Source: Enterobacter chengduensis (lineage in GTDB: Bacteria; Pseudomonadota; Gammaproteobacteria; Enterobacterales; Enterobacteriaceae). Taken from it: 64,000 nucleotides of DNA. The stretch is taken from NCBI RefSeq assembly GCF_001984825.2, contig NZ_CP043318.1, forward strand, positions 2,542,001-2,606,000. Direction: 5' to 3'. This document shows, piece by piece, positions 23,664-64,000 of this stretch. Numbering within the stretch: position 1 is the stretch's first letter; every line of letters begins with the position of its first letter. A program made the position numbers and the translations under genes. Under the pieces are notes generated by a model. The model was not told the origin of the DNA. It worked only from the letters and a program-made list of their open reading frames with translations, and ran no database searches.

Positions 23664-23693
23664 AAAAAAACCGCCGCGACCGGCGGTTTTTTT
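23664..23693. terminator. Bidirectional terminator between the CMD gene and cusA
   Basis: A 7 bp stem ACCGCCG-CGAC-CGGCGGT with an A-run on the left and a seven-T run on the right. It can end transcription of both convergent operons. Confidence 0.88.
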
Positions 23694-26832: not shown

Positions 26833-26842
26833 CATCGTCTCC

Positions 26843-28093: not shown

Positions 28094-28104
28094 GCTGCTT
28101 CTCG

Positions 28105-28446: not shown

Positions 28447-28474
28447 GTTTACTTTCCTGTTTAATGAAATGAAT

Positions 28475-40182: not shown

Positions 40183-40197
40183 TGTCGTTCTCCACGA

Positions 40198-45989: not shown

Positions 45990-46194
45990 CACATCGTCAT
46001 TGTTTCCTGACCTGCCGGTATTACAAGACTTTCTGATGCAGTTCATGATCTGCCTTTTTTACCCGGTAATTACTCAACGGGAGCAAAATGAAACATTTTA
46101 CAAAACGAGCGGGATGCTGAAGTTAAAGGTGAAAAAAGGATCTCAATAAGATCCTTTGAATTTATCAGGCTGCACCACACTAAGTGGTTAAATA

Positions 46195-46803
46195 TCAATT
46201 AATCGAACATCCTTGATTGTCCTCAAAAACTTTAGAAAATTGGGCATTTTTCAGAGTGTAGTAGGTCGTTTTACATGGATTAGTTATCGGGATACCATTT
46301 TCATCATGCTCAATTTTTTGTGGGATCGCTTGACCGGTTAATATCATTAGAAAACTCCCCTTCTTTGTATCGATCCTGAAATCTTCACCAACAGGGGTAC
46401 CATTATCAGCAACTTGCTGATAAACATTAGTTCCAGCAACTGCAGGAAGTTGTGAAACAACCTTTCCTGATAACTTATCTATAATCCAACCACACACACC
46501 ACCTTGATGATCGAGGCATTCATTTCCGCTGCTCTTATCATCAGTGTATATGCGATAATGCCCTCCGAAATTCACTGGTTCTTTTAATTCACTACTAGTT
46601 CTTTTCTTCCAGTGACTGGAGTATTTCGCTTGTTCACTAGAAAGATCTAACCTAGTGGCAAATGGGCCTTTGTTTATATCAGCCGGATAATCTTTAAATT
46701 CAGGTGTGCCTTTAACATGTAGCTCAACTGCATGAACATAGGGGAGCATAAGACATGAAACGCCACTAAGTAAGTAGGAGAAGATTCTGCTAGCTCGCGC
46801 CAT
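46195..46803 (-). CDS. Periplasmic protein, candidate immunity partner of the adjacent effector
   Basis: A 202-residue exported protein: signal peptide 1-25 (VHA-VEL), then a small domain with four cysteines (96, 104, 177, 199) able to form two disulfides and a NFGGHYRIYTDD ... GGVCGWIIDKLSGKV pattern. I do not know a named family. The gene is clearly AT-rich compared with its surroundings and overlaps the effector gene's 3' end by 14 bp on the same strand, the standard arrangement for a toxin and its immunity protein. Periplasmic location suits protection against a cell-wall hydrolase. Function is inferred from context. Confidence 0.65.
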   Translation of the reverse strand: MARASRIFSYLLSGVSCLMLPYVHAVELHVKGTPEFKDYPADINKGPFATRLDLSSEQAKYSSHWKKRTSSELKEPVNFGGHYRIYTDDKSSGNECLDHQGGVCGWIIDKLSGKVVSQLPAVAGTNVYQQVADNGTPVGEDFRIDTKKGSFLMILTGQAIPQKIEHDENGIPITNPCKTTYYTLKNAQFSKVFEDNQGCSIN

Positions 46804-49285: not shown

Positions 49286-50272
49286 ATGCTTACCGTAAAA
49301 AAACTTGCTCTGTCCACGCTGGTTTCCAGCTCACTGCTTTTTTACCCCGCGCTGCAGGCATCGGCTGAAACGCCGCAGCACGTCGTGAAACAACCGGCGG
49401 GCGGATACCGCGTTCAGGTCGGTGACGTCATGGTCACCTCGTTTACGGACGGGACCGTCGCGCAGGACCTGCACAAGCTGCTGCGCCGGACAACGCCGCA
49501 AAACATCGATGCGCTGCTCGCGAAGAATTTCCAGACCAACCCGGCCGAGGTCTCGATCAACGCCTTTCTGATTGCGATACCCGGACACAACATTCTGGTG
49601 GATACCGGTTCAGGCCAGCTCTTCGGTCCTGATGCGGGCGGACGCCTGGTTGAAAGCCTCGCCACGCAGGGGATTAAGCCCGAGGACATTACTGAAGTCC
49701 TGCTGACCCACGCCCACTCCGATCACGCGGGCGGTCTGGTGAAAGACGGCAAGGTGGTGTTCAGCAACGCGCGCGTATTCGTTGGCAAACCCGACGTCGA
49801 CTTTTTCTTTAACGACGACAATCAAAAGAAAACCGGCTACGGCAAGAACTACTTTGACGTCGCGCAGAAGACCTTAAAGCCCTATCTGGACGCCGGCAAA
49901 GTGGTGCCGTTTAGCGGCACGGCTGAGATCCTCCCGGGGCTGACCGGCACGGTTCATCCCGGCCATACGCCGGGTTCAGCCTTCTACACGCTCACAAGCA
50001 AGGGCGAGAAGCTCACTTTCGTTGGCGACATCATTCACGCCGCGGCGGTCCAGTTCCCGCAGCCAGGCGTGACCATCACCTACGATGAAGATCAGAACAA
50101 AGCGGCAGGCGTGCGTGAAAAGGCGTTTGCGGACTTTGTGAAAAACAGAGACCTGATTGCCGCGCCCCATCTGCCGTTCCCGGGTATCGGCTATGTCACC
50201 AAAGGCGAAAACGGCGGCTACGCGTGGGTCCCCGTCACCTATACCAACCGGGACGCCAGCAGCGCGAAATAA
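49286..50272 (+). CDS. Exported metallo-beta-lactamase-fold hydrolase
   Basis: A 328-residue periplasmic MBL-fold protein. The signal peptide ends near ASA-ETP (27). The zinc site motif is THAHSDH (H142, H144, D146, H147), with further ligands in VHPGHTPGS and FVGDIIH, so two metal ions are likely. The layout resembles the general MBL hydrolases of the quorum-quenching / organophosphate type rather than true beta-lactamases. Substrate is unknown. AAAGGAG precedes the ATG. It is a single gene that converges on the LysR gene with 13 bp between. Confidence 0.86.
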   Translation: MLTVKKLALSTLVSSSLLFYPALQASAETPQHVVKQPAGGYRVQVGDVMVTSFTDGTVAQDLHKLLRRTTPQNIDALLAKNFQTNPAEVSINAFLIAIPGHNILVDTGSGQLFGPDAGGRLVESLATQGIKPEDITEVLLTHAHSDHAGGLVKDGKVVFSNARVFVGKPDVDFFFNDDNQKKTGYGKNYFDVAQKTLKPYLDAGKVVPFSGTAEILPGLTGTVHPGHTPGSAFYTLTSKGEKLTFVGDIIHAAAVQFPQPGVTITYDEDQNKAAGVREKAFADFVKNRDLIAAPHLPFPGIGYVTKGENGGYAWVPVTYTNRDASSAK

Positions 50273-50285
50273 GCGGATGGCGCAG

Positions 50286-51179
50286 TCAGGCGCGATCGAG
50301 GGTAGTCAGAAATTTTTTAAGCACTTCTGAGCGAATAATCCGGTGGCAAATCAGCGTCAGCTCGCTTTCCCGAAGCCGGTCGAGGATGTCCACGTAAACG
50401 ACATTCTCGACGCTCACCGCCTTTGCCGAGGCGGGCAGCAGCGCCAGGCCAAACCCTGCCGACACCAGGCTTATCACCGTGGGCACGTCGGTCGCATTCT
50501 GCACCACGTCAGGCTGAAATCCCGCCCCGCTGCAGGCGTCGTAGAAATACTGCTCCAGCCCCATGCCTTCCGGATCGCGCAGGGAGATCCATTTTTCATC
50601 TTTCACCGACGACAGCGTCAGCGCGGCGGACCCGGCCAGAGGGTGCTGACGATACAGCGCCAGCACCGTTTTCTCGCGGGTGAACGGGCGGCTTTGCAGA
50701 TCCTCCGGCAGCGACGGCAGCGGCGGCAGCGGCGCGCGGATGATGGCCACGTCCAGCTGGTTGCTCTGCACGGCGGCGTAGAGCGTCTGCACGTTTCCGG
50801 TCATCAGCGACATGGTAATGGCCGGCCAGCGCGTATGCATCTGGCGCAATACGGCGGGCAACTTCCCGTCGAACATCGCGCTCGATACGCACCCCAGGTT
50901 TAACACCCCCTGCTCGCCCCTTGCCGTTTGCCTGGCGTCCAGCACCGCCTGCTCGGTTAACGAGATGGCGAGCCTGGCTTTCACCAGAAACGCTTCACCC
51001 GCGGGCGTCAGGGTCAGACGGCGGTTGGCCCGGCTGAAAAGCGTGACGCCTAAACGTTCTTCCAGGGCCTTTACCTGCTGGCTCAGCGCCGGTTGCGCCA
51101 TGTTCAGGCGCTCGGCGGCCCGGTGCATGTGGAGCTCTTCGGCCACGACGATGAAGTGGCGCATCTGACGAAACTGCAC
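50286..51179 (-). CDS. LysR-family regulator of the aroY-like gene
   Basis: A 297-residue LysR protein. The HTH reads LHMHRAAERLNMAQPALSQQVKALEERLGVTLF, a form common in CatR/BenM-type regulators of aromatic breakdown. I place the start at GTG 51179 because GGGAGG lies just upstream; longer starts enter the control region. It is divergent from the AroY-like decarboxylase across a 111 bp region with inverted repeats and is probably its regulator, responding to a hydroxybenzoate. Confidence 0.87.
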   Translation of the reverse strand: MQFRQMRHFIVVAEELHMHRAAERLNMAQPALSQQVKALEERLGVTLFSRANRRLTLTPAGEAFLVKARLAISLTEQAVLDARQTARGEQGVLNLGCVSSAMFDGKLPAVLRQMHTRWPAITMSLMTGNVQTLYAAVQSNQLDVAIIRAPLPPLPSLPEDLQSRPFTREKTVLALYRQHPLAGSAALTLSSVKDEKWISLRDPEGMGLEQYFYDACSGAGFQPDVVQNATDVPTVISLVSAGFGLALLPASAKAVSVENVVYVDILDRLRESELTLICHRIIRSEVLKKFLTTLDRA

Positions 51180-51194
51180 GCGACGCCTCCCTTT

Positions 51195-51239
51195 TGATAT
51201 GAATTTACTTATCAATTTAGCAGTAATGATGCAATTGAT
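51195..51239. promoter_or_regulatory. Candidate LysR operators between regulator and decarboxylase genes
   Basis: TGATA-N10-TATCA (51195-51214), a dyad of the LysR T-N11-A kind, overlaps ATCAATT-N15-AATTGAT (51211-51239). Both lie in the divergent region. Two adjacent sites fit the usual recognition and activation sites of LysR regulators. Confidence 0.45.
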
Positions 51240-51290
51240 GCTATCGGTCTTTGCCATAAAAATGGAGGCATTCAACCGTGGGAGGAAAAT

Positions 51291-52781
51291 ATGGAACATA
51301 AGATTAACGATCTCCGCAGCGCCATCGCCTTACTGCAGCGTCACGAAGGGCAATATATTGAAACCCATCATCCGGTCGATCCTAATGCAGAGCTGGCGGG
51401 GGTTTACCGCCACATCGGCGCGGGCGGCACGGTCAAACGCCCGACCCGCATCGGCCCGGCCATGATGTTCAACAGCGTGAAGGGCTATCCGGACTCGCGC
51501 ATTCTGGTGGGCATGCACGCCAGCCGCGAGCGCGCGGCGCTCCTGTTAGGCTGCGAGCCCTCTGAACTGGCAAAACACGTCGGCCAGGCGGTGAAAAAGC
51601 CGGTAGCGCCGGTGGTGGTTCCGGCCTCGCAGGCGCCCTGCCAGGAGCAGGTCTTCTACGCTGACGATCCTGACTTCGACCTGCGCAAGCTGCTTCCGGC
51701 ACCGACCAACACGCCGATTGATGCAGGCCCGTTCTTCTGCCTGGGGCTGGTGCTGGCAAGCGACCCGGAGGACAGCTCGCTGACGGACGTCACCATACAC
51801 CGCCTCTGCGTTCAGGAGCGCGACGAGCTTTCCATGTTCCTTGCCGCCGGTCGCCATATCGAAGTCTTCCGCAAAAAAGCGGAAGCGGCCGGAAAACCGC
51901 TGCCGGTGACGATCAACATGGGGCTCGATCCCGCCATCTATATCGGCGCGTGCTTCGAGGCCCCCACTACGCCGTTTGGCTACAACGAGCTGGGCGTCGC
52001 CGGGGCGTTGCGCCAGCAGCCGGTCGAGCTGGTACAGGGCGTGGCGGTTAAAGAGAAAGCGATCGCGCGCGCGGAAATCATTATCGAAGGTGAACTGCTC
52101 CCTAGCGTGCGCGTAAGAGAAGATCAGCACACCAATACCGGCCACGCGATGCCGGAGTTCCCGGGCTACTGCGGCGAGGCGAACCCGTCTCTGCCGGTGA
52201 TCAAAGTGAAAGCCGTGACCATGCGACACCGCGCGATCCTGCAAACGCTGGTGGGACCGGGAGAAGAACATACCACCCTGGCCGGCTTGCCGACCGAGGC
52301 CAGCATCCGCAACGCCGTTGAAGAGGCGATCCCGGGCTTCCTGCAAAACGTCTACGCCCATACCGCGGGCGGCGGCAAGTTTCTCGGGATATTGCAGGTG
52401 AAAAAGCGCCAGCCGTCAGACGAAGGACGTCAGGGCCAGGCGGCGCTGATTGCCTTAGCCACCTATTCGGAGCTGAAGAACATCATTCTTGTCGACGAAG
52501 ACGTGGATATTTTCGACAGCGACGACATCCTGTGGGCGATGACCACCCGCATGCAGGGCGATGTCAGCATCACCAATATTCCGGGGATCCGCGGCCACCA
52601 GCTCGATCCGTCCCAGTCGCCGGACTATAGCAACTCGATTCGCGGCAACGGCATCTCCTGCAAGACCATATTCGACTGCACGGTGCCGTGGGCGCTGAAG
52701 GACCGCTTCGAGCGCGCCCCGTTTATGGAGGTGGACCCGACACCGTGGGCGCCGGAGCTGTTTGCCGACAACACAAAATAA
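51291..52781 (+). CDS. aroY: UbiD-family (hydroxy)benzoate decarboxylase, AroY-like
   Basis: A 496-residue prenyl-FMN-dependent decarboxylase. It resembles the Klebsiella protocatechuate decarboxylase AroY nearly throughout, e.g. GVYRHIGAGGTVKRPTRIG, LPAPTNTPIDAGPFFCLG and HAMPEFPGYCGEANPSL, so the expected reaction is protocatechuate (or 4-hydroxybenzoate) to catechol (or phenol) plus CO2. AroY works with small B and D subunits and needs a UbiX-type flavin prenyltransferase; none is encoded nearby, so UbiX must come from elsewhere. GGAGG precedes the ATG. It is divergent from a LysR regulator. Confidence 0.88.
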   Translation: MEHKINDLRSAIALLQRHEGQYIETHHPVDPNAELAGVYRHIGAGGTVKRPTRIGPAMMFNSVKGYPDSRILVGMHASRERAALLLGCEPSELAKHVGQAVKKPVAPVVVPASQAPCQEQVFYADDPDFDLRKLLPAPTNTPIDAGPFFCLGLVLASDPEDSSLTDVTIHRLCVQERDELSMFLAAGRHIEVFRKKAEAAGKPLPVTINMGLDPAIYIGACFEAPTTPFGYNELGVAGALRQQPVELVQGVAVKEKAIARAEIIIEGELLPSVRVREDQHTNTGHAMPEFPGYCGEANPSLPVIKVKAVTMRHRAILQTLVGPGEEHTTLAGLPTEASIRNAVEEAIPGFLQNVYAHTAGGGKFLGILQVKKRQPSDEGRQGQAALIALATYSELKNIILVDEDVDIFDSDDILWAMTTRMQGDVSITNIPGIRGHQLDPSQSPDYSNSIRGNGISCKTIFDCTVPWALKDRFERAPFMEVDPTPWAPELFADNTK

Positions 52782-52820
52782 AATCACGCGCGTATGGCCT
52801 GCGGGTCATACGCTGATTTT
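52780..52820. terminator. Bidirectional terminator between aroY-like and RsbW-like genes
   Basis: Arms AAAATCA...GCGTATG and CATACGC-TGATTTT pair across a 10-base loop with a small bulge, with A-run and T-run at the ends. It overlaps both stop codons. Confidence 0.65.
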
Positions 52821-53231
52821 CTTCTCAAGCGTGGCAATATTTTCCCCCGCCACGCGTTCCACGGTGAAACGATCGAGGCTCAGCAAAATGAGCATCAGCC
52901 CCCTGCCGCTCTCCAGCAGCGGCGACATTTCGCAGAAACGCTCTCGCCTCGCGGCCTCAAGCCGCTCCAGCGGGAAGGCGTCACCCGCGTCGGTAAAAAT
53001 AACGCAGGCATCGTTGCCGCGAATGTCGAAACGTACGCTAAAGAGGCGCGAGCTATCCTCGTGCAGCGCGTAGCGGATGATATTCGTCGCCGTTTCACAG
53101 ACGGCGAGATCGAAGGCGAAACGCCACTCGTCGTCTACGGCAAGCGCGCCCAGCCGCTCTCCCAGCCAGGTGGCAAGCGGCGTCAGGGAATCGATCGCCG
53201 CCGGAAATTCAGCACGATCCAGCCTCGGCAT
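52806..53231 (-). CDS. RsbW-like serine kinase / anti-sigma-type ATPase
   Basis: A 141-residue GHKL ATPase of the RsbW/SpoIIAB kind. The N box is CETATNIIRYAL (E46, N50), G1 is FTDAGDAFP (D81) and G2 is ESGRGLMLI. It should phosphorylate the STAS protein encoded just before it and bind an unknown target in the other state. No sigma factor lies nearby, so its target may be an enzyme or regulator, as in the Vibrio Syp and Shewanella Crs systems. Last gene of the leftward operon, starting right after the STAS stop. Confidence 0.85.
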   Translation of the reverse strand: MPRLDRAEFPAAIDSLTPLATWLGERLGALAVDDEWRFAFDLAVCETATNIIRYALHEDSSRLFSVRFDIRGNDACVIFTDAGDAFPLERLEAARRERFCEMSPLLESGRGLMLILLSLDRFTVERVAGENIATLEKKISV

Positions 53232-53570
53232 CTACGGCCCCAGCTGCGCGAGCGCGCTGCTTTTATCCGGATAGATGCGGAAGATGCGATCCATTCGGGT
53301 CAGGGTGAACATATTCATGATCCCCGGGTTCAGGGCGCACAGCGCCATTTCGCCTTTGCCGTTCATCAGCTTAAACAACGATACCAGCATACCCAGCCCG
53401 CTACTGTCGATGAAATCCACTTTGCTAAAGTCGACGATTAAGGCTTTACGATCGCTGCCAATCTCTTCAGCGACAGAGGCCTTAAACGCGGCGGCAACAG
53501 AGGCGTCCAGCCGCCGGATCGCGGGCGTAAGAATGTTGACGTGCGGTAGCCTTTCAGTATTAACAATCAT
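53232..53570 (-). CDS. STAS-domain anti-anti-sigma-type switch protein (RsbV-like)
   Basis: A 112-residue single STAS domain. The phosphorylation loop is VDFIDSSGLGML with Ser56/Ser57, the usual target of the partner kinase. In family logic, phosphorylated STAS is idle, and dephosphorylation by the REC-PP2C protein lets it bind the kinase or an effector. Its gene overlaps the phosphatase gene by 11 bp and abuts the kinase gene, so the three are one switch module. Confidence 0.9.
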   Translation of the reverse strand: MIVNTERLPHVNILTPAIRRLDASVAAAFKASVAEEIGSDRKALIVDFSKVDFIDSSGLGMLVSLFKLMNGKGEMALCALNPGIMNMFTLTRMDRIFRIYPDKSSALAQLGP

Positions 53571-54774
53571 TTTGTTCTCCCTGACGCTCGATCACTAACA
53601 GTGAAACGTCATCGGTTAAGGCGGTCAGTTCATCACGATTCGCGTTGCGCCAGCCGGTCAGGTGATTACCGAACCGCGGCAAAAGTTCATCAAGCGGCAG
53701 CCGGGCATGTTGCTGAAGCCAGCGTTCAAGACGCTGCGGGCCAAACTGCTCCCCCCCGACGTTCTCGCACTCCGTGATACCGTCGCTGAATAAGCATAAG
53801 CGATCCCCTGGATTGAGGGTAAACGTGACGTCGTCCCAGCTCAGGTCCGGGATCAGCCCGACCGGCGGTCCGCCATCGCCCACCGAGGTGACGGCACGCG
53901 CCGCATTCACAATAAGGGGGGTAGGATGCCCGGCCTGGCACAACACTCCCTGACCGCTGTCTGGATCGATCACCCCGTAGATGATGGTGAAATAGCTGGT
54001 AATGTCGCTCTCTTCGCTGCAGAAGCGGCTGTTCAGTATTCTGACGACCTCGGCAGGCGACTGAATCCCCCCCTCTTCGGTAAACAAAAAACGATCCACC
54101 ACTCTGCCGTGCAGGAACTGACGCGCCACCGCCAGGGACATCATCGCCGCCCCCACGCCGTGGCCGGACACATCCACGCAGTAAAAGCCCAGATGCGAGT
54201 CAAGAGCAAAAATATTGAAAACATCACCCGCGACCCACGCTGAGGGTAAAAAAAGCCAGTCGGAAAAATAGTCGCCGAAGCGTAAGCGGTGTGAGGGCAG
54301 CACCGAGTGCTGAACGCGCGCCGCCAGCTCAAGATCCTTTTCAATCTGGCGTAACGCTTCACTCAGACGCTTGTTGTGCGCCGCAAGGGTCGCCTCCAGC
54401 GTCAGAATGCGTACCCCGGCGTGCAGTCGCGCCCGCAGCTCGTCCTGCTCGACGGGCTTATTTAAAAATTCATCGGCTCCGGCTTCAAACCCCCGCGCCA
54501 AATCGCCCGAATTCTCACGCGCCGTCAGCAGAATGACGTACACGTAGTGACCCCATTCCCGACTACGGATCGCCTTGCAGAGGGCAAGGCCGTCCATTTC
54601 AGGCATTTCCCAGTCGCTGATTACCATGCTGACGGGCTGGCTGGACAATATCTCCAGCGCGGCGACGCCATTTTCCGCTTCGCTCACGGTGTAGCCCCAC
54701 TGGATAAGCATTCGAGAGAGTAAGCGACGATAAATCAAAGAATCTTCAACGATTAATACGTGCAGCGCCGACAT
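53560..54774 (-). CDS. Response-regulator PP2C phosphatase (RsbU-like)
   Basis: A 404-residue protein: receiver domain (1-~120) with phospho-acceptor D54 in MVISDWEMPEMDG and Lys in FLNKPV, a coiled linker (~125-160), then a SpoIIE/PP2C domain (~165-400) with metal-binding AGDVFNI, CVDVSGHGVGAA and LCLFSDGITE. It should dephosphorylate the STAS protein when its receiver is phosphorylated. No dedicated histidine kinase is visible; one may lie beyond the window or be shared. It overlaps the STAS gene and is 9 bp from the barrel gene. Confidence 0.9.
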   Translation of the reverse strand: MSALHVLIVEDSLIYRRLLSRMLIQWGYTVSEAENGVAALEILSSQPVSMVISDWEMPEMDGLALCKAIRSREWGHYVYVILLTARENSGDLARGFEAGADEFLNKPVEQDELRARLHAGVRILTLEATLAAHNKRLSEALRQIEKDLELAARVQHSVLPSHRLRFGDYFSDWLFLPSAWVAGDVFNIFALDSHLGFYCVDVSGHGVGAAMMSLAVARQFLHGRVVDRFLFTEEGGIQSPAEVVRILNSRFCSEESDITSYFTIIYGVIDPDSGQGVLCQAGHPTPLIVNAARAVTSVGDGGPPVGLIPDLSWDDVTFTLNPGDRLCLFSDGITECENVGGEQFGPQRLERWLQQHARLPLDELLPRFGNHLTGWRNANRDELTALTDDVSLLVIERQGEQNDC

Positions 54775-54783
54775 GTATCCCTC

Positions 54784-55668
54784 CTAGATGGGTAAGAACC
54801 AGATGAGGCTCACGGTCCCTTCCCTGAATTTTGCATTCCCGTTGCCATGACCCGGATAGCGCGTCCCCGCATAGTTCGCATACTGGATGGAGAACGATCC
54901 CGGCGTGTAGCCCGCGTAGCCAAAGCTGTAGCTGTAATCGCCGTTCCAGGGCTGCTGCTGGCTGCTGTCCGGGAACCAGAACGCCGTTGCGCGAACGAAG
55001 AAATGTTGTTTGAAGGTATAGCCGCAGCCGCCGAGCATAACGTTTTTATTTTTGCGGATGTCATCGCTGCTGAGATCGTAGTAGCGCGGAACCCAGCTGT
55101 ATCCGACCTGGCAAATGATGGAATCCCCTTTATTAATCAGGAGCGTGTTTTCAACCGGCTTGGGCAAGGAAAACTTATAGGCCAGCGTGAACGCGCCCTG
55201 TTCGAAGTAGGTGTGTCTCCGACTGCCCGACGTCCAGAAGTGGTTTTCGCCGTAGTTGCCGTAAACCAGGCTCACCGTATTGGCATGCCAGTCGTCATAG
55301 CCGAAACTGTAGCGAAAGTCCGCGGTGTAGCGGTTGGTATCTCTGATCGGCAAGCGAGAGGTTATGTTGGCAAACCAGAAGCTGTAGGGGGAATACTGCA
55401 GGCTAAGATTGAGCGTCTGGTTGAGCGTGTTCTTCTGCGCGGCGCCGTCCGAGCTGTTAGGCACGCTCACCAGCTGCTCTTTCAGCCCTGAACTAAAGCT
55501 CAGGGCACCAGAAAATTGCTTTTCATTCCCCGAGAACAGCCGCCCCCAGCGGCTGGTAAAGACCCCCGCCTGAACCGGTTCGCCGTTCCGATCGCGCAGC
55601 GTGTCTGCCGCATCCGCCGCGGGTATCGCGGCGAGCAGGACGCCCGCCAGAAGCCATTTTTCGCGCAT
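54784..55668 (-). CDS. Outer-membrane beta-barrel protein of the glycan locus
   Basis: A ~294-residue exported protein, signal peptide ending ADA-ADT. Repeated amphipathic strands rich in Tyr, Phe and Trp (NLSLQYSPYSFWFANIT, GSFSIQYANYAG) and a terminal VSLIWFLPI are typical of an outer-membrane barrel. I do not recognise the family; the phospholipase A1 active-site pattern is absent. I use ATG 55668 with AAGGA 8 bp upstream; the ATG at 55677 is too close to it. Between the OpgC-like and switch genes it could export or modify the glycan. Confidence 0.7.
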   Translation of the reverse strand: MREKWLLAGVLLAAIPAADAADTLRDRNGEPVQAGVFTSRWGRLFSGNEKQFSGALSFSSGLKEQLVSVPNSSDGAAQKNTLNQTLNLSLQYSPYSFWFANITSRLPIRDTNRYTADFRYSFGYDDWHANTVSLVYGNYGENHFWTSGSRRHTYFEQGAFTLAYKFSLPKPVENTLLINKGDSIICQVGYSWVPRYYDLSSDDIRKNKNVMLGGCGYTFKQHFFVRATAFWFPDSSQQQPWNGDYSYSFGYAGYTPGSFSIQYANYAGTRYPGHGNGNAKFREGTVSLIWFLPI

Positions 55669-55679
55669 AGCCGCCATCC

Positions 55680-56897
55680 TTAGTTAGGTATCCAGCGTGC
55701 GGCAACGTTGTATCTTGCCATCAGCCACAACATGCCCAGCGCCGCCGCATGCACTAACGTATTTTCTATCCAGGCATGACGCCATAAGTCGAAGGTGATG
55801 AACTGGCTCACCAGCAGCACCACGTACACATGCAGAATAAAGGTATAAAGCGAGTGCTGGCCTAGCGGGATCAGAAACCAGCCCAGCAGACGATTGAGCG
55901 GCACCCAGCAATACGTCAGCACCAGATAGACGGTGACCATCAGAGCGATATCGTTCAGCACCCGCACCGGGCCCAGCTCATTTTTTGCCGCCCAGGTGTG
56001 ATAAAACGCATTGAAGCTGTCAGGCGAAATGACGTGAAGCAGCAGCGCGGGCGGCATAAACGGGTTGGTATGGTTCTGGGCAACAAACGCCAGACCGAGC
56101 GCCACCATCACCAGCACAGCTACCACGGCTTTTCCTGGCGGAGTGCGGGCGAAAGAGATCAGTTCGGCTTTATACCAGCCGCTGGCCATGCCCAGCACGA
56201 AGATGAACTGCCATGCCAGCAGCGGAAAGGCGAATTCGAACTCCGACGGCGTGAGCCGCACCGGCCACTGCTGCCACAGGCCGTACGCCAGCAGCGACAG
56301 CCCCAGAAGCCACCAGACTTTACCCTTCTGCAGCATCCCCAAAAACAGGGGGCTGAATAACAGCAAAAAGATATACAGCCCCAGAATTTGCGTCTGATGC
56401 GGGCCAATCTGCAAATAGAGAATAATGTTGAACCAGGTCTCCTTTATTTGCGGCGTAACCGGATAAAGCGACCAGCTTTCACCCGAAAAGCGATCGGTAA
56501 AGTGCGTGACCTCGAAAAGATTAATATGCGGCACATAGCTAAGTAAAATAAATGACACTATGACAATGATATTTACGCGATATATTTTCCAGGCTCTGCG
56601 ATATAGTCCCCAGGAGACCGTGAGCAATACCGCTTTTTGCAGGCGCGCGCGATTCAGCATGCCCAGCATAAAACCGGAAAGTATGACAAAACCCTCTGCA
56701 CCGGTTGTTAACCCAAAACGCTCCCAGGAGAATATATTAAATATTGACATCACCTCGGTATGCGCCACCACCATCATGACGAGGGCAATGCCGCGCATAA
56801 AGTCGATTCTCAGGTCCCGAGCGCCTGCAACGGAGTAACGCCATGGTATTGATTTAACTTCATCTTCTTGCGCTATCGACGGCGCAACATGGCTCAT
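55680..56897 (-). CDS. OpgC-like membrane acyltransferase
   Basis: A 405-residue inner-membrane protein with about ten hydrophobic segments. The opening RDLRIDFMRGIALVMMVVAHTE and TGAEGFVILSGFMLG fit OpgC_C proteins; E. coli OpgC adds succinyl groups to osmoregulated periplasmic glucans. It probably decorates the glycan made by the divergent GT2. True opgC lies near opgGH in E. coli, so this is likely a paralogue. It is the first gene of the leftward operon, with AAGGACA before the ATG. Confidence 0.87.
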   Translation of the reverse strand: MSHVAPSIAQEDEVKSIPWRYSVAGARDLRIDFMRGIALVMMVVAHTEVMSIFNIFSWERFGLTTGAEGFVILSGFMLGMLNRARLQKAVLLTVSWGLYRRAWKIYRVNIIVIVSFILLSYVPHINLFEVTHFTDRFSGESWSLYPVTPQIKETWFNIILYLQIGPHQTQILGLYIFLLLFSPLFLGMLQKGKVWWLLGLSLLAYGLWQQWPVRLTPSEFEFAFPLLAWQFIFVLGMASGWYKAELISFARTPPGKAVVAVLVMVALGLAFVAQNHTNPFMPPALLLHVISPDSFNAFYHTWAAKNELGPVRVLNDIALMVTVYLVLTYCWVPLNRLLGWFLIPLGQHSLYTFILHVYVVLLVSQFITFDLWRHAWIENTLVHAAALGMLWLMARYNVAARWIPN

Positions 56898-57050
56898 AGG
56901 ATGTCCTTTACCTTGAAAAAGAAAACGACGTTATAAATAAAGTAGATAGCCTAAAGGAATAGTATCCGCAATTTATCGCAGGCAGAAGAAAACAATTAAG
57001 TTGAATTTAAAATTAATTAACTCCTACTAAATAATAGCAATAAACGTCGC

Positions 57051-57078
57051 TGGACACTTTTATTCGGCGTTCTACACT
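57051..57078 (+). promoter_or_regulatory. Candidate sigma-S-type promoter of the GT2-DUF3131 operon
   Basis: TGGACA, 16 bp spacer, TACACT, with extended -10 TCTACACTTA that matches the RpoS pattern KCTAYRCTTAA closely. It lies 100 bp upstream of the GT2 start in the divergent region. Inferred from sequence. Confidence 0.45.
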
Positions 57079-57177
57079 TACCTTAAATCTTGTTTAGTCG
57101 CTAAATTTTACTTTCGGGCCACTGCCTGCGCCGCAGAATGGGTCTGCATTTTTCACGGAATCAGGAACGCCGGAACT

Positions 57178-58995
57178 ATGGATTTTTATTTTTCCCGTTT
57201 TGAACAACGTCGACCTCCGGAACCGTTAAAAACACCGCGCTGGGTCATGATGACCTGGCAGGTGCTGGCGGTCGCGGCGCTTATTCTGGGCGCAAATTAT
57301 ATTTACTGGCGCTGGACCGCTTCCCTGAATACCGACGCGCTATGGTATGCCATACCGCTGGTCCTCGCCGAAACCCTGGCCTGGATAGGCACCGTGCTGT
57401 TTACCATCAACTTGTGGAAAGAACAGGATCCTCCCCAGAGCCCGCCGCCTGGCGAGATTAACGAATGCCTGGCACCTGACGAGGCCGTAGAGCCCCGTCC
57501 CGTTAAGGTGGATCTGTTCATTGCCACCTATTCGGAAGACACCGAGCTGGTCAGGCTGTCCATTCGCGACGCCCTGAAGATGGAATACCCGTTCCCGATT
57601 GACTATCGCATCCACGTGCTTGACGACGGCCGCCGCCCGGAGATGAAAGCCGTCTGTGAAGAGGAAGGCGTTAACTATATCAGCCGTCAGACCAACATCG
57701 GCTTTAAGGCCGGCAACCTGCGCAACGGCCTTGAGCAAACCGACGGCGATTTTATTGTGATCTGCGACGCCGATACCCGCGTATTTCCCACCCTGCTCAG
57801 CCATACGCTGGGCTATTTTCGCGATCCGGATGTCGCCTGGGTGCAGACGCCGCAGTGGTTCTTCGACCTTCCGGAAGGGGAAAATCTGTCGCGCTGGGGG
57901 CAGCGAAAAGTCGGAAAAGTGGGCTACGGTCTGGGCTGGCTGATTCAGAAATTTGTCGGACCGGTCACCGTTGGCCGCGACCCGTTTTTTAACGATCCGC
58001 GCATGTTCTATGACGTCATCCTGCGGCGGCGCAACTGGGCGAACGCGGCATTCTGCTGCGGCGCGGCGTCCATCCACCGTCGCGAGGCGGTCATGCAGGC
58101 CGCGCTCCGCAGCTACGTCTGGTCCGTCGAAGAGGAGATCCATCGCCATACCCGCGACATCCGCGATGACGAAACGCGCGAAGCGCTGCAGGAGGCGATG
58201 CGCCCGCACGTGGCGTTTGACACCGAGCTCACCCCCTACAAATTCCACGTCTCCGAAGATATCTACACCTCGGTGCTGCTGCACGGTGACGCCGCCCGGC
58301 GCTGGCGCTCGGTCATGCATCCGCGCGTTGAGTCGAAGATGCTCTCGCCGCAGGATATGCTGACCTGGATGATCCAGCGCTTTAAATACGCCGCCGGCTC
58401 GCTGGATATTTTGTTCCATGACAATATTTTCAGCCGTCGCCGCTTCAGGCTTTCGCTTCCCCAGACGCTGATGTATGCCACCACCTTCTGGTCCTATATG
58501 GCCTGCGTGTGGAACACGGTATTTTTGATCTCGCCCATTATCTATCTGTTCACCGGCATTCCGCCGGTCTCCGCCTGGTCGACGCCGTTCTATCTCCATT
58601 TTCTGCCGTTTTTTATCGTCTCGGAACTGGCCTTTATGTTCGGGACCTGGGGGATTTCGGCCTGGGACGGCAGAGCCTCTTACCTCTCCTTCTTTTCCAT
58701 GAACCTGCGCGCGCTCGATACGGTGCTGCGGGGCGAGCAGATCAAATTTCACGTCACGCCAAAAGAGCGGCAGACGGGCCGTTTTCTCTACCTGGTGAAG
58801 CCGCAGATTGCCATCGTGGTGCTCACCCTCGCAGGGCTTATCTGGGGAGGGATTCAGGTAGCGCGCGGTCAGGTGGACGATCCTTCCGGCTACGTCATCA
58901 ATATTTTCTGGGGTGGGGTGAACATCGCCGCCATGCTTCCCCTGATTTTTGCGGCCATGTGGACGCCCGCTGAAGAGGACGAGGTCACCCCATGA
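57178..58995 (+). CDS. Cellulose-synthase-like family 2 glycosyltransferase
   Basis: A 605-residue processive-type GT2 in the inner membrane. Two membrane segments lie near 25-45 and 55-80, then the catalytic domain: HVLDDGRRPEMK (D149, D150), CDADT (DxD, 197-199), VQTPQWFFD, the base-region SED (359-361), and QRFKY at 400-404 where BcsA has QxxRW. Further membrane segments follow to the end. The C-terminal PilZ domain of BcsA is missing, so direct c-di-GMP control is unlikely. Sugar and linkage are unknown. It starts the rightward operon and overlaps the first DUF3131 gene by 4 bp. Confidence 0.9.
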   Translation: MDFYFSRFEQRRPPEPLKTPRWVMMTWQVLAVAALILGANYIYWRWTASLNTDALWYAIPLVLAETLAWIGTVLFTINLWKEQDPPQSPPPGEINECLAPDEAVEPRPVKVDLFIATYSEDTELVRLSIRDALKMEYPFPIDYRIHVLDDGRRPEMKAVCEEEGVNYISRQTNIGFKAGNLRNGLEQTDGDFIVICDADTRVFPTLLSHTLGYFRDPDVAWVQTPQWFFDLPEGENLSRWGQRKVGKVGYGLGWLIQKFVGPVTVGRDPFFNDPRMFYDVILRRRNWANAAFCCGAASIHRREAVMQAALRSYVWSVEEEIHRHTRDIRDDETREALQEAMRPHVAFDTELTPYKFHVSEDIYTSVLLHGDAARRWRSVMHPRVESKMLSPQDMLTWMIQRFKYAAGSLDILFHDNIFSRRRFRLSLPQTLMYATTFWSYMACVWNTVFLISPIIYLFTGIPPVSAWSTPFYLHFLPFFIVSELAFMFGTWGISAWDGRASYLSFFSMNLRALDTVLRGEQIKFHVTPKERQTGRFLYLVKPQIAIVVLTLAGLIWGGIQVARGQVDDPSGYVINIFWGGVNIAAMLPLIFAAMWTPAEEDEVTP

Positions 58996-60311
58996 GGATA
59001 CGTGATGCCCTGCTGCCCGCGCGCAGTTACCTCACCATTTTGCTCGGGTTTCTGCTCGGCTTTGCCGTGGTGGTCTGGGTTGAAAAACAGATGCCCACCC
59101 GCGTGGAAAGCAGCGGCGGCATCGCGCTCAGTAAAGACTTCCCGCCGCTGCCCGCGAAGCGCGCGCTGACCTATGACGAAGCCATCTGGGCGCGGGTCGC
59201 CTGGCAATACTATGTAAATAATACCCAGCCGAACGGCCTGGCGAACGCCAGCGACGGCGAGCCCTGGCTGAGCCTCTGGAGCGTGGGGAGCTACCTGTTT
59301 GCGACCGCTGCCGCAGAGCAGCTCAACATTATTTCCGCCGATGAGTTCGACGAGAGGATCGGCACCGCCCTGTTCACGCTCGGGCAACTGCCGCTCAACG
59401 AGCAGGGCCTTCCCGCCGCGTATTACCATGCGGATACCCTGAAGATCCTCGGGAAACCCGACGCCTCGGCAATCGGGCTGAGCCGCCTGCTGACGGCGCT
59501 TCAGACCCTGCTATGGCGCTATCCTCAGCACGCGGCGGCTATCCACGATCTGATTAGCCTCTGGAACACCGGCGCGCTGATAGAAAATAACGACCAAAGC
59601 CAGGCGGCCGTGCCGCTCCACCACTGGGCGCTGACCGCTGACGAACAGCGGGACAGCTTTGGCTACCGCCTCTACGCCAGCCATACGCTGCGCCTGATTG
59701 ACAGCGCGGCGGGCCTTGCGGTCACCAATCCGCCGGAAGGGCAAAAGATGATCGATCTGGACGGCGTGATGGTGCCCGATGAAGGGCTACGCACGCCCTG
59801 GGGCAAGCAAACCTCCCTCATCAGTCTCCCCTATCTGTTAACCGGCCTTGAGCTGGGCTTTGATGCGCAGAGCGCTGAAATTGCATGGCGAATTATGCAG
59901 ATCCAGCAGCGGCGCCATAGCCTGCGTACCCCAAAACCGCCGATCAGCACGGATTATGCCGAACCGGCCCCGGATTACGTTACCGATCTGCCGAACAGGC
60001 AGCCGGTTCAGTCACGCGCCCTGCGCGACGAGGTGCCGGAGAAGGTGGCGATAGCCTCAACCCGCACCGCGTTTGCCTGGTATGCCCTGTTCCGCAATAG
60101 CTGGAGCGAAGCGCTGCGCCAGCAGGTTCTGGCCCTTCAGGTGCCGGGTAAAGGCTGGCAGCGCGGGTTAAATCTTAACAACAGCGTCAACGCCGTCGTG
60201 GACGCCGATACCAATGCCATCGTGCTGGAAAGTTTGTCTTACATCGCGCACGGTCAGATGCTTTGTCTGGCCTGCCTCTACACTTCCCCCTCAGCAGGAG
60301 CAACGCCATGA
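58992..60311 (+). CDS. DUF3131 protein 1, membrane-anchored
   Basis: 439 residues: one N-terminal membrane anchor (~12-33) followed by a periplasmic DUF3131 domain. The family pattern AWQYYVNNTQPNGLANASDG...LWSVGSYL is at ~75-110. Helix-rich with regularly spaced motifs, it probably folds as an (alpha/alpha)6 toroid like GH144/GH189 glucan enzymes; that is inference. The first and most divergent of three tandem paralogues. It overlaps its neighbours by 4 bp on each side (ATGA), so expression is tightly coupled to the GT2. Confidence 0.85.
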   Translation: MRIRDALLPARSYLTILLGFLLGFAVVVWVEKQMPTRVESSGGIALSKDFPPLPAKRALTYDEAIWARVAWQYYVNNTQPNGLANASDGEPWLSLWSVGSYLFATAAAEQLNIISADEFDERIGTALFTLGQLPLNEQGLPAAYYHADTLKILGKPDASAIGLSRLLTALQTLLWRYPQHAAAIHDLISLWNTGALIENNDQSQAAVPLHHWALTADEQRDSFGYRLYASHTLRLIDSAAGLAVTNPPEGQKMIDLDGVMVPDEGLRTPWGKQTSLISLPYLLTGLELGFDAQSAEIAWRIMQIQQRRHSLRTPKPPISTDYAEPAPDYVTDLPNRQPVQSRALRDEVPEKVAIASTRTAFAWYALFRNSWSEALRQQVLALQVPGKGWQRGLNLNNSVNAVVDADTNAIVLESLSYIAHGQMLCLACLYTSPSAGATP

Positions 60312-61855
60312 AGCCACGATCCCCGATCCTTTTTCACCTGCTCACGGGACTAACGATCTGCTGGCTGGCACTCTCGACCGCGCGTGCGGACACAGAGCTT
60401 CCTGCATCGGGTTACTCCCCGCGCAGCGGCGAGCTGACGGCCCGAGAGATGACCATCGCGAAAAACGCCTGGCAGTATTTCGTCGCCAACTATCAGCCCA
60501 CGACGGGCCTGGTGAATGCGGTCAATAAATATCCCTCCACCACCATGTGGGACAGTGCCTCCTATCTGGCCGCCCTGACGGCGGCGCGCGAGCTGGGGAT
60601 CATTGATAAAGCGGAATTCGATCGCCGGATGCTGAAATTTCTCGCCACGTTAAACACCCTGGTACTGTTCCGCAACGAGCTGCCCAACAAGGCCTATAAC
60701 ACCATCAGCGGCCAGAAGGTGGACTACACCAACAAGCCCGGCGAAATTGGCTTCTCGGCGCTGGACATCGGGAGGATGCTGGTCTGGCTGAAAATCATCA
60801 AAGAGCGCTATCCGGAGTATGGCAACAGCGTGGATAACGTGGTGCTCGGCTGGGATTTCAGCCATGCGATCGACCCCTGCGGCACGCTCTACGGGGCCTA
60901 TCTGGAGAACGGCCAGCCGAAGTATGTTCAAGAAGGCCGTCTGGGCTATGAAGAGTATGGCGCGGCGGGCTACCAGCTGTGGGGGTTTAATACCTGTAAG
61001 GCCAGCCGCCCGCAGCCTTACGAGCTGGCCGAGATCTACTGCGTGCTGGTCCCGTACGATTCGCGCGACCCACGCGACACCTCTCAGCATAACTACGTGG
61101 TGACGGAATCTTACCTGCTCTACGGGCTGGAGTTCGGCTTTGATAAGCCGACCGACCGGGACAACGCCCCGCGCGACTACTCCCTGACGTGGATGAAAAA
61201 CTTTGCCGACCGCGTTTATCAGGCGCAGGAGAACCGCTATACCATTACCGGTGTTCTCACCGCGCGCTCCGAGCACCAGCTCGATAAAGCCCCGTACTTC
61301 GTCTATGACACCGTCTTCAGCGACGGATACAACTGGAACACCATTACCGATAAGGGCCAGTTTGTTCCTAACGCTGCCGCGATATCGCTGAAGGCGGCGC
61401 TGGGCATGTGGGTGCTGTGGAACTCCCCTTATACCGACCGCCTGCTGAACACCATTGAGAATGCTAACGAAGAGGGAAAAGGCTACTACGAAGGGCTGTA
61501 TGAAAACGGTGACGGCCCGATCAAAGAGTTCACGGCGAACAATAACGGCATCATGCTGGAGGCCCTGCTGTTCAAAAAAGAGGGAAAACTGCTGGCCTTC
61601 AACACCGACAACCCGAAGAGCAAGGATTTTGCCCCGTCTTTGTGGGATCAAAAGCTGCTCGATCAGTTTGAAGAGAACAACGCCCAGCGCAACCGCCCGT
61701 TCCTGAGCAGCACGCCGTCGGTAAAAAGCTGGTGCGACCGAACCGGCGTCACGCAGCGCACCCAACCCGCCTGTCAGGCCTGTCAGTGCGCGTCATGCAG
61801 CGCGGACGAGCCCGTTAAACTGCCTCCGGTGACCGCGCAATGCTTAAAACCATAG
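60308..61855 (+). CDS. DUF3131 protein 2, periplasmic with Cys-rich tail
   Basis: 515 residues with a cleavable signal peptide (ARA-DTE near residue 28). The DUF3131 domain covers ~50-470 with AWQYFVANYQPTTGLVNAVNKYP...MWDSASYL and the acidic centre YDTVFSDGYNWN. The last ~45 residues form a separate cysteine-rich tail ending CQACQCASC and a final Cys, which could bind metal or form disulfides; its paralogues lack it. I use ATG 60308, which overlaps the previous stop. It is the largest of the three paralogues. Confidence 0.85.
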   Translation: MKPRSPILFHLLTGLTICWLALSTARADTELPASGYSPRSGELTAREMTIAKNAWQYFVANYQPTTGLVNAVNKYPSTTMWDSASYLAALTAARELGIIDKAEFDRRMLKFLATLNTLVLFRNELPNKAYNTISGQKVDYTNKPGEIGFSALDIGRMLVWLKIIKERYPEYGNSVDNVVLGWDFSHAIDPCGTLYGAYLENGQPKYVQEGRLGYEEYGAAGYQLWGFNTCKASRPQPYELAEIYCVLVPYDSRDPRDTSQHNYVVTESYLLYGLEFGFDKPTDRDNAPRDYSLTWMKNFADRVYQAQENRYTITGVLTARSEHQLDKAPYFVYDTVFSDGYNWNTITDKGQFVPNAAAISLKAALGMWVLWNSPYTDRLLNTIENANEEGKGYYEGLYENGDGPIKEFTANNNGIMLEALLFKKEGKLLAFNTDNPKSKDFAPSLWDQKLLDQFEENNAQRNRPFLSSTPSVKSWCDRTGVTQRTQPACQACQCASCSADEPVKLPPVTAQCLKP

Positions 61856-63234
61856 CCAGAGGGCTCGCGGGATTACTCCTCGCAGGCGCGATCGTCTTTG
61901 CTCTGTTTGGCCATCAGGGTGCGGGCTGGCGCTGGCTCATCAACGGCGGCTGGCATTCCAGCGCGCGTATCTCAGCCCTGACGCCGGAAGAGCAGGCGTG
62001 GGCGGCAACCGCCTGGCGCTATTTCGCCAATAATACCCAGCCGCAAACCGGGCTGGTCAACGGAAGCGACAAACAGCCCCGCGTCACGCTCTGGCAAATG
62101 GGCGATACGCTTATCGCCCTGCTGGCGGCAAAAGAGCTGGGGCTGATTGATGACGCCGAGTATGACGCTCGCTTAACCCGTATCATGGGCACCCTTAACC
62201 GCCTGATGCTGACCGATGCCCGCACGCCGGGCCGACTCTATTCCAGCCAGACGGCGACGCCCGTCGACTTTAGCGGTAAGCCCATCAAAAATGGTTGGTC
62301 CGCGCGCGACATGGCGCGCCTGATGCTCGCCCTGCGCCTCACCGCGGAGCGGGAGCCGCAGTACAGCGAATATCTGGATAAGATCGTCCTGCGCTGGAAT
62401 TTCTGCCCGGTCATCGACAGCGAGGGCGAACTGTGGTCATCGTCCCTGCAAAACGGCCAGCCGGTCGTCCGGGAAGAGCTGCGCCTGGGCGAGAGCGAAT
62501 ATGCCGCGACGGCGTTCCAGCTGTGGGGATTTTCTCCCGATAAGGCCTTCACGCCCCCGGCGCGCCACGTCATCATCGCCCAGCGACGTCTGGCCGTGGA
62601 CGCGCGGGATCCGCGCACCACGTGGCAGCCCTCTTTGATTACCACCCTTCCCTATATGCTGCCGGGCCTGGAGTTTGGCTGGGAGCCCGACGGCGTGGGG
62701 GCCGACCTGCAAAAGCGGCTGCGCAAGCAGGCCGAAAACGTCTGGCTGAGCCAGAAGACCCGCTGGGAGACCGATAAAATCCTGACGGCAAGGGCTGATT
62801 TCACGCTCTCACAGGCACCCTGGCATATTCAGGATGCCGTCTGGGGAAATGGCTATGCCTGGAACGCGGTCGGCGACGATGGCCGGGACTACACCCGTTT
62901 CTCGCAGGTATCGACCAGGGCGGTTTTTGCCCTCTGGGCGCTATGGGACACCCCGTACACCGACGTGCTGATGTCGGTGACAAAGCATCTTAACGACCCG
63001 CAGAAAGGCTGGTACGAAGGCCGCCTTGAAGCCACGGGCGATACCAACGCTGCGTTAACCCTGTCCACCAACGCCACGGTTCTGGAAGCTCTTTTCTTTA
63101 AACACAACGCCGGGCCTCTGTTTGACGTCCGTCGCGCGAAGAAAGAGAGCTACTTTTCACGCCGCCTGGCAGAGGAATACACGCCCATCGGGCACTGTCT
63201 GCCGGGCGAAAGCACCATAAGGAGGAGGCCGTGA
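61840..63234 (+). CDS. DUF3131 protein 3, membrane-anchored
   Basis: 464 residues with an N-terminal membrane segment (~8-25) and a DUF3131 domain (~45-440) that follows protein 2 closely: AWRYFANNTQPQTGLVNGSDKQP...LWQMGDTL, GWSARDMARLMLALRL, and IQDAVWGNGYAWN. The acid pair SDG of protein 2 is WGNG here, so the two may differ in activity. It starts 16 bp inside the end of gene 2 and its stop overlaps the globin-like start by 4 bp. Confidence 0.85.
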   Translation: MLKTIARGLAGLLLAGAIVFALFGHQGAGWRWLINGGWHSSARISALTPEEQAWAATAWRYFANNTQPQTGLVNGSDKQPRVTLWQMGDTLIALLAAKELGLIDDAEYDARLTRIMGTLNRLMLTDARTPGRLYSSQTATPVDFSGKPIKNGWSARDMARLMLALRLTAEREPQYSEYLDKIVLRWNFCPVIDSEGELWSSSLQNGQPVVREELRLGESEYAATAFQLWGFSPDKAFTPPARHVIIAQRRLAVDARDPRTTWQPSLITTLPYMLPGLEFGWEPDGVGADLQKRLRKQAENVWLSQKTRWETDKILTARADFTLSQAPWHIQDAVWGNGYAWNAVGDDGRDYTRFSQVSTRAVFALWALWDTPYTDVLMSVTKHLNDPQKGWYEGRLEATGDTNAALTLSTNATVLEALFFKHNAGPLFDVRRAKKESYFSRRLAEEYTPIGHCLPGESTIRRRP

Positions 63235-63656
63235 AGTTCTATCGCGATCTGTTTGAATCCAGCCTGAACCGCGTCTTTCCTGATAATGAAAAAACCGCGT
63301 TTTTTCAGACGTTCTATGACGCCTTCGTCCATATGTCGCCCGAAACTGAAGCGCATTTTTCTCGCCTGCCGGAGCGGGAAGGTCAGCAGACCCTGTTTAA
63401 AAGCTTCTTTGCCATGCTGGCGGTAGACGGCGCCCTGATCGTCCCTGATTTTCTTGAGCGCCTGGCGCGGGAGCAAAGCGATGACGGTCTTCATCTTCCC
63501 CCGCGCTTTTTTGCCCTGTGGCGAGAAGCCATGCTCAACGCGGTGAGCCTGCGCGATCCGCTCTGCGACGATGAGATCCTGACCGCTTGGGCGATGGCCA
63601 TCGCGCCCGGTCTGGAATACCTGCGCCGACAGGCAGAACTGCATTACCGCGCGTAG
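63231..63656 (+). CDS. Globin-fold sensor protein without proximal histidine
   Basis: A 141-residue all-helical protein with the globin-sensor pattern: F-rich helix A/B (FFQTFYDAFVHMSPE), FFAMLAVDGALI (helix E region) and LERLAREQSDDG...FFALWREAML, where globins have LAxxHxxxGV. The proximal His position is Gln82, so ordinary haem ligation is not expected; His88 is offset. This recalls the haem-free globin domain of RsbR stressosome proteins. It starts at GTG inside the preceding stop with GGAGGAGG upstream. It lies beside the PAS gene and opposite an RsbU/V/W-like switch, so a signalling role is likely. Confidence 0.65.
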   Translation: MKFYRDLFESSLNRVFPDNEKTAFFQTFYDAFVHMSPETEAHFSRLPEREGQQTLFKSFFAMLAVDGALIVPDFLERLAREQSDDGLHLPPRFFALWREAMLNAVSLRDPLCDDEILTAWAMAIAPGLEYLRRQAELHYRA

Positions 63657-63667
63657 GGAGAATCACG

Positions 63668-64000
63668 ATGAGCGCATTCACGTACGACCTTAACGCGCTG
63701 CCGGCCGCCGTCATGATTTATGACCGTGATGAACGCCTGCAGGCCTGGAATCACAACGTGGCCCTGTTCTATCCGGTCATCACCCCGTGGCTGAAGGAAG
63801 GGACGACCCTTGAAGCGCTGGCGGAGCGCTTTATCGATGCCGTTTACAACGTCGATCCCGGCCTGCGCCAGACGTTGCGCGAGTCGATTGTGCGCAACTG
63901 TCGGCAGGATAAACACTGCGAGGTGCGCCAGGCCGGACAGCGCCGCATCTTCGTTCAGCACCAGCGGCTTGCGGACGGCGGCATTGTCAGCCTCCACAGC
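63668..64000 (+). CDS. PAS-domain signalling protein (3' end outside window)
   Basis: The first 111 codons of a protein that continues past the window. ALPAAVMIYDRDERLQAWN and the later IFVQHQRLADGGIVSLHS form one PAS domain of the PAS_7 type, which is usually followed by a histidine kinase or GGDEF output domain. Either would fit: a kinase could feed the REC-PP2C protein, a cyclase could control glycan synthesis. AGGGAGA precedes the ATG; 11 bp separate it from the globin-like gene. Confidence 0.8.
   Translation, partial: MSAFTYDLNALPAAVMIYDRDERLQAWNHNVALFYPVITPWLKEGTTLEALAERFIDAVYNVDPGLRQTLRESIVRNCRQDKHCEVRQAGQRRIFVQHQRLADGGIVSLHS

Follow-up and report, generated by a model that had tools for sequence, protein, structure and literature searches.

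Gene content of the locus

The window analysed here, a stretch of 64,000 nucleotides from Enterobacter chengduensis (contig NZ_CP043318.1, positions 2,542,001 to 2,606,000), ends with a locus in which genes for a glycosyltransferase of family GT2, three DUF3131 proteins and an OpgC-type acyltransferase stand together with those of a partner switch. A first-pass annotation had proposed an undescribed glycan locus of two divergent operons with such a switch built in. The families and coordinates of both operons are borne out by the open reading frames (ORFs), called by length without a gene finder, and by Pfam matches. The 280 bp given for the region between them are exact, and the tight overlaps are real: stop and start codons overlap in ATGA (GT2/D1 and D1/D2) or GTGA (D3/globin), and the overlaps of D2 with D3 and of STAS with PP2C measure 16 bp and 11 bp, respectively. 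Leftward, the order is opgC-like, barrel, REC-PP2C, STAS and RsbW-like; rightward, GT2, three DUF3131 genes, the globin-fold gene and the start of a hybrid kinase gene. These family assignments are firm; the mechanism that we infer from them is discussed below.

52806–53231, minus strand: RsbW-like serine kinase (HATPase_c_2; PF13581, 6.8e-13, Pfam); E/N and G-box positions conserved (73 sequences)
53232–53570, minus strand: STAS protein of the anti-sigma-antagonist type with a DSS phosphosite motif (PF01740, 1.6e-16); DSS conserved (73 sequences)
53560–54774, minus strand: REC domain fused to a PP2C/SpoIIE phosphatase (PF00072, 3.3e-28; PF07228, 1.9e-37); Asp motifs conserved (71 sequences)
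54784–55677, minus strand: outer-membrane beta-barrel, predicted 12 strands in two similar halves (structure model; no Pfam match)
55680–56897, minus strand: OpgC-type membrane acyltransferase (PF10129, OpgC_C, 1.9e-52; 178.8 bits, cut-off 21.4)
56898–57177, no strand: divergent intergenic region of 280 bp between the opgC-like gene and GT2
57051–57080, plus strand: promoter-like TGGACA-16-TACACT with TCTACACTTA at 57071–57080
57178–58995, plus strand: BcsA-related GT2 synthase without PilZ, motifs QRFKY, SED and FHVTPK (Pfam GT2, 4.5e-14)
58992–60311, plus strand: DUF3131 protein D1 with an N-terminal hydrophobic segment; R replaces E215 (PF11329, 2.1e-64)
60308–61855, plus strand: DUF3131 protein D2, the likely catalytic member (PF11329, 4.8e-129)
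61840–63234, plus strand: DUF3131 protein D3; S replaces E215 (PF11329, 6.9e-95)
63231–63656, plus strand: globin-fold protein with Gln where PA3967 has its His (no Pfam match; profile match to PDB 1tu9)
63668–64000, plus strand: N-terminal part of a PAS hybrid histidine kinase whose gene runs past the window end (full length in locus L033, 16490–19156)

The protein annotated earlier as a PAS protein does carry PAS, and is only the first part of a larger kinase. In L033, from Enterobacter sichuanensis, whose GT2 is 97% identical to that of the window, the hybrid kinase has 888 amino acids, the architecture PAS-PAS-HisKA-HATPase-REC-REC-Hpt and no hydrophobic segment, and a GH2 gene follows. 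The window GT2 is also 98% identical to that of E. vonholyi.

A BcsA-related synthase in a clade of its own

By sequence, the GT2 is a multi-span membrane protein whose closest solved structures are BcsA (4e-29). It scores 198 bits with the cellulose synthase model TIGR03030 (CelA), below the cut-off of 699, and Pfam gives no PilZ match in it at an E-value of 0.1. Relatives were collected by scanning GTDB genomes with six peptide patterns, the best 80 of 352 being fetched. QR[FY]KY is found in all 81 aligned locus GT2s (window plus 80), at the position where 12 of 12 BcsA proteins and 8 other GT2s carry QxxRW; the locus proteins further have SED in place of TED and retain the FxVTPK loop. We take these three positions to serve acceptor contact and site gating in BcsA, and the change to QR[FY]KY suggests a different acceptor geometry. 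In a tree made by a quick method from 67 of the 80 locus GT2s, with long branches among the outgroups, the locus proteins form one clade (SH-aLRT 99) separate from the 12 BcsA and the 8 other GT2s. From its relation to BcsA, the GT2 would polymerise a chain and extrude it across the inner membrane. Two known operon types were rejected: a plain cellulose (bcs) operon, for which the TIGR03030 cut-off, the QxxRW motif and PilZ all fail, and an opgGH operon, the GT2 scoring 16.9 bits with the MdoH (OpgH) model against a cut-off of 884.

DUF3131 proteins and other envelope components

The structure model of D2 (pLDDT 85.7, pTM 0.86) places the DUF3131 fold closest to GH189 and the beta-1,2-glucanases; GH8 and BcsZ are matched more weakly. 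E215 is retained in 30 of 30 Enterobacterales D2 proteins, and in the model, to judge by eye without superposition, E215 or E216 agrees with the order of elements, F not being evident. The residues to compare with them in the structures 5gzk, 6imw and 8wy1 are E211, E262 and E1356, with E1442 as the nucleophile (PMC10834661). On these residues D2 is the likely enzyme in Enterobacterales, with D1 and D3 probably acting as non-catalytic partners. The literature searched yielded no mention of PF11329. The Brucella gene BMEI1837 is presumably cgs. The same gene appears in a table of one paper that mentions DUF3131. Sequence alignment of cyclic glucan synthase with DUF3131 covers the N-terminal third only.

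The outer-membrane barrel and the globin-fold protein of the earlier annotation both held up, although neither has a Pfam match. The barrel is modelled with 12 strands (pLDDT 82, pTM 0.77), and its half-repeat score of 74 exceeds the best of 500 shuffles (67). The globin-like profile finds PDB 1tu9 (PA3967) at 3.9e-16; the position aligned to the PA3967 His, presumably the haem ligand, is Q in 6, H in 2 and G in 2 of 10 sequences, the window having Q (by eye). The GH2 proteins of related loci are closest to beta-mannosidases.

Conservation and co-inheritance

The main count comprises the 66 loci in which GT2 is flanked by 9 kb or more in both directions; 14 of the 80 with less than 9 kb on one side, 6 of which have all three switch genes, and three plasmid loci were set apart. 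REC-PP2C, STAS and RsbW occur together in 62 of the 66. At least one DUF3131 gene is present in all 66 and at least two in 64, and the barrel (49/66), GH2 (45/66), hybrid kinase (44/66) and globin-like gene (15/66) follow. Since the component profiles and their author-set thresholds come from these same loci, specificity has to be judged from the controls. No component exceeds threshold by these profiles in 20 slices of 20 kb from arbitrarily picked (not randomly drawn) places in six locus genomes, nor is any found in 12 stretches of 17–20 kb around BcsA genes that pass TIGR03030; these BcsA genes score 134–199 with the GT2 profile, against at least 900 for the 80 locus GT2s. A chance assembly of neighbours was rejected on these counts and controls.

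The four loci without a switch within the fetched 10 kb belong to Serratia (L020, L024) and Edwardsiella (L026, L027), and their genomes retain REC-PP2C (50–57% identity), STAS, RsbW and glycogen phosphorylase. Both Serratia genomes carry the switch block together with the barrel on the GT2 contig, some 14 kb beyond GT2. Counting these remote blocks, the full switch is present in 66 of 66 genomes and linked to GT2 in 64, so that the two operons do not separate freely; free separation was what the first-pass annotation had named as fatal to its proposal. Glycogen phosphorylase next to REC-PP2C-STAS-RsbW is seen at L159 10033–12474, L160 3429–5867, L164 8700–11144 and L165 12071–14512. Pairwise distances of STAS (r 0.775), RsbW (0.744) and REC-PP2C (0.705) correlate with those of GT2 across 53, 53 and 50 dereplicated loci (999 permutations, p at most 0.001). 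Such a correlation also follows from the shared descent of the organisms and thus speaks against free mixing without being evidence of physical contact.

An independent survey covered 295 genomes from the GTDB order that includes Enterobacter. GT2 (E at most 1e-80) is present in 10, and DUF3131 (E at most 0.001) in 12, namely strongly in the same 10 and as weak partial matches in two, both to proteins with a glycoamylase domain of the GH144/Cgs type. REC-PP2C (E at most 1e-35) occurs in at least 21, a lower bound because scoring was limited to six candidates per genome. In 20 genomes with the locus, every DUF3131 copy except G008:C57 shares a contig with the main cluster, at a distance of at most about 20 kb, and none of 14 control genomes contains DUF3131.

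These data also bear on whether the switch serves some other target (glycogen breakdown, for instance, or a sigma factor encoded far away) and merely sits by the glycan genes. Wherever it stands away from GT2 it adjoins glycogen phosphorylase (4/4 genomes, two Serratia and two Edwardsiella), and at least 12 of the 295 survey genomes have REC-PP2C relatives at 30–35% identity without GT2, which argues against exclusivity; linked copies outside the closest genome, at 32–36%, are comparable. We nevertheless regard this explanation as quite unlikely: the switch is present in 38 of 38 loci outside Enterobacterales, and REC-PP2C lies within about 6 kb of GT2 in 9 of the 10 GT2 survey genomes, the tenth (G268, locus L163) being a broken locus that has lost the left operon and the first part of GT2. 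Glycogen phosphorylase, for its part, can be a supply line for uridine diphosphate (UDP)-glucose.

The neighbourhood comparison that had been suggested for Enterobacterales thus extends beyond that order: relatives of the locus span several phyla (Pseudomonadota and lineages of the Desulfobacterota and Ignavibacteria/Kapaibacteria types), several being represented by metagenome-assembled genomes only. An island restricted to Enterobacterales was rejected for this reason, and a phage gene because viral_contigs holds no relative; no near match was found in 20,395 E. coli records. Plasmid copies keep the gene order, complete in Salmonella and without the globin gene in Pantoea agglomerans; the Pantoea stewartii plasmid copy has IS66 among the switch genes and no annotated opgC. 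Signs of decay are seen in P. stewartii (L081 1746–9000, L019; IS66 between switch genes and a split OpgC), in L016, L018 and L025 (split PP2C or GT2) and in G268. The locus occurs in filamentous, partly sheath-forming genera (Sphaerotilus, Thiothrix and Leucothrix; L030, L031, L060, L064, L067, L068, L078), and a link to the sheath would be a guess.

The partner switch and a promoter-like element

With a PP2C phosphatase, a STAS protein with its serine and a HATPase kinase, all with conserved motifs, the three leftward genes have what defines a partner-switching module of the RsbUVW type. No sigma factor was noticed among gene clusters common to at least five loci, of which part were scanned with Pfam; the search did not extend to the rest of the genomes. 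Seven loci (L039, L042, L043, L048, L051, L056, L057) encode a DUF4301 protein close to the switch.

The divergent region contains the only TCTAYACTTA of the window (57071–57080; 0.02 expected), as TCTACACTTA, which we take to resemble a sigmaS −10 element. All 13 Enterobacter-type loci that were fetched have a CTAYACT −10 box at −107 to −116, two of them (L019, L081) being both from P. stewartii; the −35-like part varies. The box is absent from loci of Chimaeribacter, Siccibacter, Pantoea/Mixta/Erwinia, Yersinia, Budvicia and Serratia and present in 1 of 50 others; Edwardsiella carries it at −54 in a different setting, and 5.6% of shuffles contain it. Of the stress-type control proposed earlier, the part that finds some support is thus stress-type transcription, and that for the Enterobacter-type lineage only.

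Product and proposed mechanism

We consider it fairly probable that the locus is one system making a beta-glucan from UDP-glucose. The GT2 would polymerise the glucan and extrude the chain across the inner membrane into the periplasm, where the DUF3131 proteins, which share their fold with beta-1,2-glucanases and with the domain that carries out cyclization in cyclic glucan synthase, would cut or transfer it. OpgC may add acyl groups of the succinyl type, GH2 may trim chain ends, and the 12-strand barrel may give the product passage through the outer membrane. The hybrid kinase would pass phosphate to REC-PP2C, which would then dephosphorylate STAS, and the RsbW-like kinase would rephosphorylate it; free STAS would license the pathway, replacing the control of BcsA by PilZ and cyclic di-guanosine monophosphate (c-di-GMP). 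The donor sugar is carried over from relatives, its genes not being in the window: distant loci have glycogen phosphorylase and a nucleotidyltransferase, the Thiothrix copy of which matches UTP-glucose-1-phosphate uridylyltransferase at 497 bits, and together these point to a route from glycogen through glucose-1-phosphate and UDP-glucose to beta-glucan. Distant loci also carry GH9 and GH16.

Several observations weigh against such a system. OpgC is found in only 37 of the 66 loci, and the nucleoside triphosphate (NTP) transferase (20/66), GH9 (14/66), GH16 (7/66) and glycogen phosphorylase (8/66) are found in fewer and are all missing from the window. The Edwardsiella switch is unlinked to GT2, lying about 830 kb away (L026) or on another contig (L027). 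No BcsB-like or tetratricopeptide repeat export protein was identified, and the fold neighbours of the barrel are oligosaccharide porins and autotransporters alike. Clues to the linkage conflict, the DUF3131 fold pointing to beta-1,2, GH9 and GH16 to beta-1,4 or beta-1,3, and GH2 to beta-mannosidases. What the analysis establishes is the gene content, its long co-inheritance, the clade and motifs of GT2, the fold of DUF3131 and the intact motifs of the switch; the product, each enzymatic step, the link from the kinase to REC-PP2C and the direction and target of the switch are inferences.

The linkage clues lend themselves to two other explanations. One is a product with beta-1,2 bonds that is not an exopolysaccharide, to which the relation of DUF3131 to GH189 and the beta-1,2-glucanases, the OpgC at the locus and the oligosaccharide-porin size of the barrel would lend themselves, as would the four Shewanella DUF3131 genes that a table of one paper assigns to a salt-shock module (PMC8371737). 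It is unlikely, given that the GT2 is BcsA-like and neither OpgH nor a Cgs fusion, that beta-1,2 bonds are at odds with the GH9 cellulases and GH16 found next to distant relatives, and that OpgC is absent from 29 of 66 loci. The other is a cellulose or mixed-linkage system independent of c-di-GMP, with a beta-1,4 or beta-1,3;1,4 polymer and DUF3131 in the role of BcsZ. The BcsA structures closest to GT2, the GH9 and GH16 neighbours and the weaker matches of D2 to GH8 and BcsZ are consistent with it; we hold it to be very unlikely for a clade that lacks the QxxRW motif of BcsA.

Within the favoured beta-glucan system, one specific form can be put forward tentatively, as a doubtful but possible third route to beta-1,2-containing glucans. 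Here a BcsA-like synthase with QR[FY]KY as its changed acceptor motif would pass the chain on to stand-alone DUF3131 enzymes that size or cyclise it. DUF3131 would then stand next to GH189 as a new family of glycoside hydrolases or transglycosylases, and STAS freed by the phosphorelay would act directly on the synthase complex as its gate, the role that c-di-GMP plays for cellulose synthase.

Relation to known systems

The locus is real, old and unnamed: a glucan-type locus that brings its own partner switch and represents a variant of the synthase-dependent polysaccharide systems. With bcs it shares a multi-span synthase whose closest solved relatives are BcsA and which retains the FxVTxK loop, but its GT2 falls far below the TIGR03030 cut-off, has no PilZ, carries QR[FY]KY for QxxRW and belongs to a separate clade, and the switch and DUF3131 genes are at none of 12 BcsA loci. 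Cyclic glucan synthase, by contrast, combines GT and GH94 domains in a single giant protein, where this locus has a BcsA-like GT2 and separate DUF3131 proteins. The OpgC-family acyltransferase recalls the osmoregulated periplasmic glucans (OpgG/OpgH/OpgC), whereas the GT2 is not OpgH and no OpgG-type gene is among the ten complete genes of the locus in the window.

By its published description, SypE/SypA of Vibrio fischeri, in the 18-gene Syp locus, is similar: there too a polysaccharide locus is accompanied by a phosphatase of the response-regulator type and by a STAS protein whose serine is conserved. SypE joins kinase and phosphatase in one protein, unlike the separate PP2C and RsbW-like kinase genes here (PMC4517449). 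BgsA/BgsB, likewise compared by description, is a bacterial synthase of a linear beta-glucan and, according to the title of the paper, is activated by c-di-GMP (PMC9495663). The literature searched, which left subscription papers and preprints aside, yielded neither a name nor a functional study, so the locus is still unnamed; it is less clearly undescribed, because what reads as the same gene content, likened by gene list alone, appears as Klebsiella pneumoniae (NTUH-K2044) 'block 3b', with no name or function (PMC12974863).

An unnamed synthase locus of about twelve genes conserved across distant lineages, with copies on Pantoea and Salmonella plasmids, gives the family DUF3131 a testable function. 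In its BcsA-like synthase, partner switching may have taken the place of c-di-GMP control, and the locus offers a compact second system in which to ask what STAS targets in polysaccharide control, a question shared with SypA.

Neighbouring genes

About 8 kb from the locus, a GlgX-TreY-TreZ operon (38107–44450; all three above NCBIfam cut-offs) encodes formation of trehalose from glycogen-type glucans, and glycogen and osmotic stress are themes common to both. The left border of the locus (49286–52781) holds genes for a metallo-beta-lactamase-fold protein, a LysR-type regulator (by eye) and a UbiD-family decarboxylase. A protein of 744 amino acids without a Pfam match at 1e-5 is encoded at 46790–49024, in a stretch of low G+C content (45% at 46001–48000), and heavy-metal efflux genes of the CusA/CusB/OEP type lie at 23692–29860.

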